Shown: positions 10,198 to 32,433 of the stretch, one piece after another
Position numbering within the stretch: position 1 is the stretch's first letter
Layout: the number at the start of each line of letters is the position of its first letter
Assembly: GCA_001871415.1 (NCBI GenBank)
Contig: MNWW01000002.1
Location: 1 to 42,690, forward strand
Reading direction: 5' to 3'
Source of the DNA: Candidatus Woesearchaeota archaeon CG1_02_57_44
Lineage (GTDB): Archaea; Nanobdellota; Nanobdellia; Woesearchaeales; CG1-02-57-44
Length of the DNA: 42,690 nt
Made by a program: the position numbers and the translations under genes
Notes under the pieces: generated by a model
Databases searched by the model: none
Seen by the model: only the letters and a program-made list of their open reading frames with translations
What the model was told of the DNA's origin: nothing

Positions 10198-11874
10198 CTA
10201 TCCAAGCATGCTGCCAAATCCCGGGATGATGTTTTGCGTTGCTGCGGGGATGACGACGCTCAGTACTGCGCCTATCCAGAGCATGAAGACCAAATCTATG
10301 AAACTCGCGGATAACATACCGCCGTCTACCAACTTCACAATGACGCTAGAGATGACGCTGTGTACGATAATAAGGATGCCGATGAGCAGCAGGACCCTGT
10401 CCATATTCGTTGCGGCAAGGTTCGGCGAGATGCCTCCGAGCACATCCTGCATATTGCTCGCTCCTTGCATGGGCGAGGAAAAGACTCCTCCGATGATTTC
10501 TGAAATTTTTGCTGTGACATAGATGGACGCGGAGAACCCGACCAGCGACCCATACAGGGCGCCTTTGAGGCCTGATGCGAGCTGCAGTCGCTGCATGCGC
10601 AAGGATACAAGCCTCTGAAAGTTCCTGCTGACTATCTCTCCCACCTTCTCTCCATCGCCTCCGAGGTAGATGGATTCGCTGAAAATCTTGCTGAAGTGCT
10701 GGATAAGGTGGCTTCCGGACTCTCCTGCGAAAAACAGCCAGCATTCGAATTTCTCAGATCCGACACGAAGCCTGCGATACAGATTGTGCATCATATCATT
10801 GATGGGTCCGAAGTCGTGCACCAGGATGATTTTCAGGCTGCTGAGCATCGCGCCATTACGCGCGCGTACAGCTGAACCAAGTGATCTGACAAAAGCCGGA
10901 AAGAAGGTGTCTCGGCGGAGTACATCCTGCTCTTCCCGCGTGGCCAGCCATCCTGGAATAATCAACGGTGTCGCACCAATAGCGACGCCGACCAGGAATG
11001 GCAGTCGGGTAAAAAATACAAGAATTATCAGCAGTATGGCTGAGATGGGCGCTGTTATCAGGACTGTCAGACGCACTTTTCGCATGCCGGGGTCTTTGAC
11101 TTGCAGGTTATGGCAGATCTTGTCAGCAGGAACGAGCGCTTTGACCAGGAACAATATGACGCCGTCGATGACGACGATGGTGAGGATGGCGTACTGAGCA
11201 ATGACTTCCAGACTGATGCCCATGAGTAGTGGCATCAGCAAAGAGATGCTGAGCATGAACGCTATAGCCACGGTCAGCGAGGTGAACAGGCTTTCTATCA
11301 TCCTGATGCTTTCCAGGCTTTTCTTGTACTCTAGCTCATACGCGTCCATGACCGCGTCCTGTTCTTCCAGCAGGAATGTTTCGATGTCCTGGCCAAAGTC
11401 CATGGCGACCGCGAAGCGGTCAAGAAAATCCGCGAATGCCTCGCTTGGTGAGAGCGCGCCAATCCGCTTGCATGTTTTGGGAAACCCCATGGTCCATTTC
11501 TTGGCGAGATAGAAAATTTTTTCCGCTATCTTGGATATCTCGCCAAACGCGCGCTTGCTGGCTATAAGGCGGAACAACACGGTCCTGTTGATTTTCATGG
11601 TGCTGACTGTGCCAGCGTAGGTGATGAAGAAATGCAAGTTGCCGTCAATGTCTGTTTTCTTGTTGAGAAACAGACCAAATGGATAGACAATCATGAACAA
11701 TGTGCCAAGGACGAGAGGTATTGCTGCCAGGGAGCGGGTGATGGGAATGAACGCGAATACGACAGCGCAGGCGATACTGGTGCCCAGCGTGGGTAGGGCG
11801 AACTTGAGCAGATATTCTGACACGGACAGATACCCTAAAGTCGCTATTGCTCTGGAAAGGTTGAATCGTTTCAT
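10198..11874 (-). CDS. arlJ: Archaellum platform membrane protein ArlJ (FlaJ)
   Basis: The polytopic membrane platform of the archaellum motor, related to PilC/GspF, which anchors the ATPase ArlI and guides filament assembly. 558 residues, the family's usual length. It has two N-terminal helices (about 13-60), a cytoplasmic helical domain, a central group of helices (about 195-330), a second cytoplasmic domain with FAGESGSHLIQHFSKIF near 376, and C-terminal helices after residue 430: the duplicated T2SSF layout. In-frame stop codons just upstream fix ATG 11874. A 105-base gap separates it from arlI, longer than expected within an operon. Confidence 0.95.
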   Translation of the reverse strand: MKRFNLSRAIATLGYLSVSEYLLKFALPTLGTSIACAVVFAFIPITRSLAAIPLVLGTLFMIVYPFGLFLNKKTDIDGNLHFFITYAGTVSTMKINRTVLFRLIASKRAFGEISKIAEKIFYLAKKWTMGFPKTCKRIGALSPSEAFADFLDRFAVAMDFGQDIETFLLEEQDAVMDAYELEYKKSLESIRMIESLFTSLTVAIAFMLSISLLMPLLMGISLEVIAQYAILTIVVIDGVILFLVKALVPADKICHNLQVKDPGMRKVRLTVLITAPISAILLIILVFFTRLPFLVGVAIGATPLIIPGWLATREEQDVLRRDTFFPAFVRSLGSAVRARNGAMLSSLKIILVHDFGPINDMMHNLYRRLRVGSEKFECWLFFAGESGSHLIQHFSKIFSESIYLGGDGEKVGEIVSRNFQRLVSLRMQRLQLASGLKGALYGSLVGFSASIYVTAKISEIIGGVFSSPMQGASNMQDVLGGISPNLAATNMDRVLLLIGILIIVHSVISSVIVKLVDGGMLSASFIDLVFMLWIGAVLSVVIPAATQNIIPGFGSMLG

Positions 11875-23997: not shown

Positions 23998-24253
23998 GGG
24001 GGATGCCCAGAAGCGCGATGGGAAATGGCTTCTTGCACATGATCCCGAAATCCGCTGCAGTCAGGTCCACCACTTCCAGCGGTCTTCCTGCGGCCTCGCA
24101 AAGGCGTCGTGCTTCCCTGAGCGCGTCAGGGCTGCAGTTCGAGGCCGCGATGACCTCGGCGAGGGTGTTCCTGCGCAGCTCCTTGAAGATGCGCTCAGTC
24201 CCGATGATTGCTTTGCCTTCGATGGCCAGACTGCGTATCATTTTCTTGTCCAT
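23990..24253 (-). CDS. rpl30e: Ribosomal protein L30e
   Basis: 87 residues of the L7Ae/L30e fold, large ribosomal subunit. The opening helix, GKAIIGTERIFKELRRNT and IAASNCSPDALREA are the family hallmarks; the C-terminus LLGIPHA is slightly short. Its usual place between rpoA'' and nusA supports the call. Starts at ATG 24253. Confidence 0.95.
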   Translation of the reverse strand: MDKKMIRSLAIEGKAIIGTERIFKELRRNTLAEVIAASNCSPDALREARRLCEAAGRPLEVVDLTAADFGIMCKKPFPIALLGIPHA

Positions 24254-31822: not shown

Positions 31823-31923
31823 CGGGCCGGACGAGATTCGAACTCGCGACCCCCTGGTTTCTTAGCATGCTGGTATGCATGTGCTTAAAAGCCAGGTGCT
31901 CCTCCAGGCTGAGCTACCGGCCC
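31823..31923 (-). tRNA. tRNA-Lys (anticodon TTT) with canonical intron
   Basis: Acceptor GGGCCGG/CCGGCCC, D-arm GCTC/GAGC, anticodon stem CCTGG/CCAGG, variable GGGTC, T-arm GCGAG/CTCGT with TTCGAAT, discriminator G. The loop reads CTTTTA, a 27-base insertion, then A; removal gives a 74-base tRNA with anticodon TTT. The insertion sits after position 37, the canonical archaeal intron site. CTT of the loop can pair with AAG at the intron end and AGCA with TGCT, leaving three-base bulges. Confidence 0.93.
31859..31885 (-). other. Intron of tRNA-Lys (position 37/38)
   Basis: 27 bases; the exact ends can slide by one or two because of repeated A residues. Inner stem AGCA/TGCT. Confidence 0.75.
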
Positions 31924-32009
31924 AGTGCATGTCACTGGCACCCCTACTGTTGCGGATGGCACATATGCGGCGACATCCCCTGAATTGCATTCTTGCGCTA
32001 AAAAAATGG

Positions 32010-32106
32010 CGCCCTGGCCGGGATTCGAACCCGGGTCGAAGCCTCGACAAGGCTTCATGATACTCCGGGCAGTTTTTAGCTGCTGGCCGGACTACACTAC
32101 CAAGGC
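32010..32106 (-). tRNA. tRNA-Asp (anticodon GTC) with D-loop intron
   Basis: Acceptor GCCTTGG/CCAGGGC, anticodon stem AAGCC/GGCTT with loop TTGTCGA, variable CGAC, T-arm CCGGG/CCCGG with TTCGAAT, discriminator G. The D-arm contains 23 extra bases between positions 20a and 21. Removing them gives GTGTAGTCCGGCC then ATCATG, with A14, G18, G19 and A21 exactly in place and a 74-base product. The anticodon loop itself is uninterrupted. Confidence 0.92.
32062..32084 (-). other. Non-canonical intron in the D-loop of tRNA-Asp
   Basis: 23 bases. The exon bases TCCGG pair with intron bases CCGGA, the inner stem is GCAG/CTGC, and the three-base bulges are CC|A at the 5' cut and GT|A at the 3' cut: a full bulge-helix-bulge motif. 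Confidence 0.85.
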
Positions 32107-32260
32107 AACACATGTCTGATTTCACAGTGGATGTTCCCTGGGCTATGCCTCTAATACTTCCAAATACGGCAAGCATAGAGAATGCCCTTTTGTACTGCCC
32201 CAGAAAACCACCGTTCGCCTTTATTGTCTCACCCATTTGCAAAAGGTCCCCTCACCCGGA

Positions 32261-32288
32261 TGCTCAGCCACAAAGACTCTTTGCGACT
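32261..32288 (-). other. Non-canonical intron in the T-loop of tRNA-Tyr (position 59/60)
   Basis: 28 bases. Exon TTCA pairs with intron TGAG, bulges are AG|A and CA|T, and the body of the intron is a 9-bp hairpin GTCGCAAAG/CTTTGTGGC with a three-base loop. Splicing gives the T-loop TTCAAGT. Confidence 0.87.
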
Positions 32289-32310
32289 CTTGAACCGGGG
32301 ACTTTTCGGT

Positions 32311-32367
32311 GACTATTGCTGCCTATGATTCATCCTTTCCTGACCTCAGGAACGTCGCATAGGGGAT
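32311..32367 (-). other. Canonical intron of tRNA-Tyr (position 37/38)
   Basis: 57 bases. Loop bases CTGT pair with intron bases ATAG, with bulges AG|A and TC|A. Inside are nested stems CCTATG/CATAGG and TTCCTGA/TCAGGAA. Confidence 0.85.
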
Positions 32368-32433
32368 CTACAGCCGAACGCTCTAGCCACTGAGCTATGA
32401 GGGGACACCGACGACTACGAGAAAAAGGGTCCC

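Follow-up and report, generated by a model that had tools for sequence, protein, structure and literature searches.

The tRNA-Tyr gene and its copy number

Why tRNA-Tyr genes keep their introns is an old question. It is raised twice over by the tRNA-Tyr(GUA) gene of an archaeon of the order Woesearchaeales, which is interrupted both next to the anticodon and within the T-loop: is such a gene the working tRNA-Tyr of the organism, can its splicing endonuclease remove both introns, and what might the introns do? The gene lies in a window of 42,690 nucleotides (the whole stretch of DNA that was analysed), which is contig C26 of an assembly of 1,534,662 bases in 77 contigs with an estimated completeness of 82%. 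RpoB' is about 70% identical to that of Woesearchaeota and the genome is assigned to the Woesearchaeales; the nearest relatives that were compared all belong to the same order, in other families.

The mature sequence is divided into three exons of 37, 22 and 14 nt (Table 1). The intron positions (37/38 and 59/60), lengths (57 and 28 nt) and coordinates given in a first-pass annotation of the window are confirmed, and so is the C1-G72 pair. The spliced 73-mer, which has this pair, A73 and the anticodon GTA, is recognized by ARAGORN as tRNA-Tyr(gta), while the same program makes no tRNA call on the precursor or on either half-spliced form. The fold of the precursor has a z-score of -2.5 and that of the T-arm segment a z-score of -4.0. 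Neither ARAGORN nor the Rfam tRNA model picks up the locus when the window is scanned, nor does the Rfam model when run on the genome; the practical point is that two standard tRNA searches overlooked an intron-bearing tRNA-Tyr gene.

Table 1. Features of the tRNA-Tyr gene and of the neighbouring tRNA genes, in window coordinates
Feature	Position	Strand	Basis
tRNA-Tyr(GUA) gene, three exons, mature length 73 nt	32247..32404	-	sequence; ARAGORN (spliced form only); covariance model R1
Exon 1, positions 1-37, anticodon GTA	32368..32404	-	sequence, ARAGORN on spliced form
Intron 1, 57 nt, canonical 37/38, kink-turn and guide-like element	32311..32367	-	sequence, relatives
Kink-turn hairpin of intron 1 (CCTATG-C-GA-C ... 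G-GAT-GA-AT-CATAGG)	32322..32363	-	parse; covariation of homologous helix
CAGC, complementary to G31-G34; the kink-turn GA lies exactly 8 nt to its 5' side	32318..32321	-	sequence
ATAG, forms the central helix of the 37/38 BHB with C32-U35	32313..32316	-	sequence
Exon 2, positions 38-59	32289..32310	-	sequence, ARAGORN on spliced form
Intron 2, 28 nt, T-loop 59/60, strict BHB	32261..32288	-	sequence, fold
Exon 3, positions 60-73	32247..32260	-	sequence, ARAGORN on spliced form
tRNA-Asp(GTC), 22-nt D-loop intron at 32063-32084, BHB geometry	32010..32106	-	sequence
tRNA-Lys(TTT), apparent canonical 37/38 intron	31823..31923	-	Rfam tRNA and sequence

This is the only tRNA-Tyr gene detected in the organism. 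A second intact tRNA-Tyr(GTA), which the first-pass annotation would have taken as the sign of a decayed copy here, is not found in the 82%-complete genome, whether by the tRNA model, by DNA similarity or by the intron model, a result that is strong, though short of absolute in an incomplete assembly. Although a second tRNA-Tyr could lie in the missing part and do the work of a decayed copy, the chance of this is close to negligible, since the stems of the mature tRNA are all intact, near-complete relatives show the same architecture and no other GTA tRNA is present in these searches. With one gene, intact pairs and a recurring architecture, the pseudogene reading was dropped. Judged from the sequence, both introns are very probably spliced functionally.

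T-arm introns in the Woesearchaeales

The T-loop intron forms a strict bulge-helix-bulge (BHB) motif. The 5-bp T-stem serves as the outer helix, 3-nt bulges (AG|A and CA|T, as first annotated) flank a 4-bp central helix (TTCA/TGAG), and the 9-bp hairpin of the intron, also noted in the first pass, forms the inner helix. Among shuffled 28-nt inserts, the combination of the central helix with an inner helix of at least 8 bp occurs at a frequency of about 2 × 10⁻⁵. Removal of the intron restores a complete standard tRNA, as judged by ARAGORN on the spliced form.

The first-pass annotation had considered a T-loop intron unexpected in a genome with a split rpoB and an archaellum. Both of these features are indeed encoded, as is a split RNA polymerase A, but the intron is not unexpected in this lineage, since about one-fifth of the parsed Woesearchaeales tRNA-Tyr genes have T-arm introns. 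The tRNA-Tyr genes of the order were collected by exon similarity, not by intron, and 64 of them were parsed. T-arm introns are present in 14 of the 64 (the gene described here included), 11 at position 59/60 and three at 53/54. In all 11 T-loop-intron genes of this first set, 59/60 is the best BHB register, with a 5-bp outer helix; the central helix is complete (4/4) in seven genes and has three of the four pairs in the other four. The three 53/54 introns are without an outer helix in the BHB-register count. A second set of loci, picked by the intron model, yields further T-arm introns. The T-loop intron thus belongs to a class of BHB introns, at 59/60 or 53/54, that recurs across the lineage. 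Local alignment scores give no support for a shared ancestry of the T-loop intron sequences.

Both 53/54 and 59/60 are listed archaeal intron positions (PMC4090602), while no report of T-arm introns in the Woesearchaeales was found in the literature searched. The kind of intron is therefore already known, and it is its occurrence in this lineage that appears to be new. The closest counterparts are the archaeal non-canonical introns at 53/54, 56/57 and 59/60 in the Thermoproteales and other groups (Sugahara 2008, as presented in PMC4090602), where a T-arm BHB and a 37/38 intron likewise occur in one gene. In contrast to those introns, as far as that account goes, the present ones occur in the Woesearchaeales together with a single alpha-type EndA, with no beta subunit or CSL/ASL-type insertion detected.

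Individual loci show further variation. The tRNA-Tyr gene at L236 has, by eye, T-arm introns at both 53/54 and 59/60 in addition to its canonical intron. Those at L157, L166 and L188 have an apparent extra intron inside the anticodon (at about 35/36), with a stretch CAAAGATGC in common. At six loci from other orders (L237, L246, L255, L264, L270 and L271) the automatic parse misread the genes, and the apparent T-arm introns were discarded by eye.

The splicing endonuclease

A broad-specificity endonuclease of the alpha2beta2 or epsilon2 type had been expected in the first-pass annotation, an expectation that is not borne out. The genome has one EndA gene, as have nearly all related genomes. 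Counted from a plausible start, the alpha-type product is mostly about 170-190 aa long, and its catalytic residues Y, H and K are conserved. A second full homologue at E ≤ 1 is absent from 39 of 40 genomes; G034, with two alpha-type EndA genes, is the exception. The family-profile search of the 40 genomes gives only alpha-type genes, split pieces and fragments, and no beta-like subunit. Based on sequence alignment rather than structure comparison, the catalytic region is nearly gapless against the alpha4 EndA of M. jannaschii and has no insertion. The closest solved relatives include the M. jannaschii enzyme (1a79) and the N. equitans alpha subunit (3iey_A), both of the same family by sequence. 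The N. equitans alpha subunit works with a beta subunit, whereas no beta gene is seen here. By size and copy number this EndA is of the alpha type and would most simply be a homotetramer.

Since the T-loop motif of the present gene is strict, it is within reach of an alpha4 enzyme, and a motif of this kind does not necessarily call for a broad-specificity endonuclease. The 37/38 motif is a different matter. Relaxed motifs have been reserved for two-subunit and three-unit enzymes (PMC6379350; PMC7714728), yet the central helix at 37/38 is fully paired in just 10 of the 64 genes, and 50 of the 64 have a U33·pyrimidine mismatch. Because complete central helices are so few, the EndA of these organisms probably tolerates relaxed motifs. 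The T-arm introns, for their part, call into question the rule that ties non-canonical introns to two-subunit or three-unit splicing endonucleases.

Structure and conservation of the canonical intron

The canonical intron, which the first-pass annotation passed over, has the more informative conservation of the two. In the present gene its BHB has a 4-bp central helix (CTGT/ATAG, with one G·U pair) and the 3-nt bulges AG|A and TC|A, as had been seen before, and the adjoining intronic helix is a single base-pair. All 64 parsed tRNA-Tyr genes have a canonical intron. In 60 of them the 3' strand reads TGA, 8 nt, YAGY, and no other spacing occurs in more than 10 of the 64; because the genes were chosen by exon similarity, the fixed 8-nt spacing does not stem from the way they were selected. 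In most of the 64 introns the automatic parse also shows the G-A strand that completes the kink-turn. The YAGY element forms at least four contiguous pairs with residues 31-34 in 60 of 60 introns, and six pairs with residues 29-34 in 48 of them. With G34 paired, U35 is the first free base beyond the YAGY pairing in these 60 introns.

The stem between the kink-turn and YAGY varies freely and compensates, all six of its pairs changing on both sides. Over the 15-pair structure, 145 cells have double changes as against 48.7 in shuffles, and 86.8% of the cells are paired as against 63% in shuffles and 25-43% in slid controls. Within the phylum, the covariance model R1 matches 238 of 371 genomes, among them members of other orders of the class; it is found in 191 of the 243 near-complete genomes, nearly always once per genome. 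What is conserved in the 37/38 intron is an RNA element in which a kink-turn hairpin and YAGY keep a constant relation to each other and to the anticodon. A degenerate canonical intron of 17 nt, without the kink-turn element, occurs in the tRNA-Tyr gene at L151 of the complete genome G014.

A possible H/ACA-like guide for position 35

On balance, the 37/38 intron is slightly more likely than not to be an H/ACA-like guide, embedded in the pre-tRNA-Tyr, for pseudouridine at position 35 (Psi35). The kink-turn would hold YAGY, 8 nt from its 3' G-A, against residues (29)31-34, so that U35 would be left unpaired and placed for Cbf5, which would convert it to pseudouridine. The single EndA would cut both introns at the BHB motifs of the transcript. 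The guide would probably act in cis, which is favoured because the intron shows no evident 5' guide with which it could work in trans. A trans guide acting on the spliced tRNA was also considered and is disfavoured, since on inspection the 5' guide strand forms no more than about two pairs. While the structure and its conservation are seen directly, the enzyme, the modification and the action in cis are what we infer.

In productive archaeal H/ACA guides, the stem has 10 layers, GA pairs included, from the pocket to the second G·A pair (PMC4652768), and the K-turn lies 5-6 nt above the pocket (PMC7991803). On the 3' strand, 60 of the 64 introns have these 10 layers as 8 nt plus two G·A pairs. 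On the 5' strand there is usually one nucleotide fewer, 7 nt plus the G-A, so that one nucleotide is bulged. The upper stem carries the kink-turn characteristic of H/ACA guides, and the 3' guide forms 4-6 contiguous pairs that end at G34 and adjoin U35. On the other side of the pocket, the 5' guide strand has, when read by eye, at most about two pairs 3' of the uridine. The anticodon stem is all that could stand in for a lower stem, and inspection reveals no conserved ACA box, nor any fixed ANA, 14-15 nt from the pocket.

Known guides show the same features in other combinations. In Sulfolobus, an H/ACA guide directs the formation of Psi35 in pre-tRNA-Tyr (PMC4652768; PMC7991803). According to the citations of Muller 2009 in these two papers, the Sulfolobus/Aeropyrum H/ACA sRNA has the same target and a kink-turn, and its 3' guide matches the residues 5' of U35 by complementarity; it is described there as free-standing, with a lower stem and an ACA box, whereas the present element is intronic and has neither in clear form. 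The H/ACA-like sRNAs of Pyrobaculum (PMC4652768) likewise consist of a kink-turn hairpin flanked by guide sequence, with the lower stem lost or residual, but they are separate genes with two guide arms, while here only the 3' guide is clear. Guides within introns have precedents in the acting or proposed guides of the Haloferax tRNA-Trp intron (PMC11408192) and the N. equitans tRNA-Met intron (PMC3491384), although these are box C/D guides for 2'-O-methylation and an H/ACA-like pseudouridylation is proposed here.

Among the proteins of such a complex, Cbf5 is found in the genome, and Nop10 in this genome and others (92 of 99). Gar1 is not detected in this genome or in 29 relatives (30 Woesearchaeales in all) by a model that passes its cut-off in just two of four archaeal controls; it is either lost or too divergent. 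An L7Ae-family match is located in the window at 24002-24238, beside rpoA''; the L7Ae-family match of this genome is probably L30e.

TruD/aPus7 makes Psi35 in many archaea (PMC6313347). Since it is present in 88 of 99 genomes, this one included, the guide is not strictly needed for Psi35, and loss of TruD as the driver was rejected. It is conceivable, though somewhat doubtful, that most tRNA-Tyr genes of the Nanobdellota, in the Woesearchaeales and other orders, keep the intron as a self-modifying cis guide on U35. The intron-dependent modification of eukaryotic tRNA-Tyr would be a parallel to such a cis guide, and the guide, if real, would represent an independent archaeal route to intron-dependent modification of tRNA-Tyr.

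Alternative roles of the element

The kink-turn and YAGY might instead aid splicing or folding and guide no modification, a role that is rather unlikely. L7Ae would bind the kink-turn, and the YAGY pairing would steady the anticodon for EndA at a relaxed 37/38 motif. A helper would be useful where 50 of 64 genes have the U33·pyrimidine mismatch and the intronic helix is weak, and YAGY often overlaps the splice-site helix. However, such an aid alone does not predict a fixed 8-nt spacer, and YAGY is kept even where the splice-site helix is separate and fully paired. The distance from YAGY to the splice site is 8 nt in 51 of 60 introns and otherwise 5-22 nt. Where YAGY stands apart, the splice-site helix is fully paired in seven of nine genes, compared with three of 53 where the two overlap (Fisher p = 8 × 10⁻⁶, for a comparison picked after the data were seen and among related genes that are not fully independent). 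A splice-site helix that is fully paired when YAGY is separate supports a job of its own for YAGY.

An improbable alternative is that TruD/aPus7 makes Psi35 in an intron-dependent manner, the intron being its recognition element, as with Pus7, the enzyme of intron-dependent Psi35 formation in eukaryotic tRNA-Tyr. The wide occurrence of TruD noted above would allow this, and the intron of yeast tRNA-Tyr has long been known to be required for correct modification (Johnson and Abelson 1983, as cited in PMC11408192). Several near-complete genomes in which TruD has no match (G011, G036 and G050 among them), however, keep both the intron and the element, and recognition by TruD leaves a kink-turn with H/ACA spacing unexplained.

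Even though the two strands of the kink-turn look like box D (YUGA) and box C (NGAUGA), a box C/D guide like the Haloferax tRNA-Trp intron is very improbable: the box-like strands are in D-C order around a hairpin, and what precedes the D-like box is a strand of the freely covarying stem, not a conserved antisense element, which is the reason for rejecting it.

Other intron-bearing tRNA genes

The tRNA-Tyr gene belongs to a tandem array of Tyr, Asp and Lys tRNA genes (31823-32404), all intron-bearing, which lies upstream of the RNA polymerase operon and in the same orientation. The tRNA-Asp(GTC) gene is given no identity by ARAGORN. A 44-nt D-loop intron with BHB geometry is located in the tRNA-Arg(TCT) gene L138 of the same genome (G000, contig C22, about 11632-11750). 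Since D-loop BHB introns occur in both tRNA-Asp and tRNA-Arg(TCT), splicing in the T-loop is no lone oddity in this genome. The tRNA-Met(CAT) gene L023 (contig C55 of G000) has a canonical intron of about 49 nt with UGAUG-like boxes, which may be compared with the N. equitans tRNA-Met intron and its proposed C/D guide.
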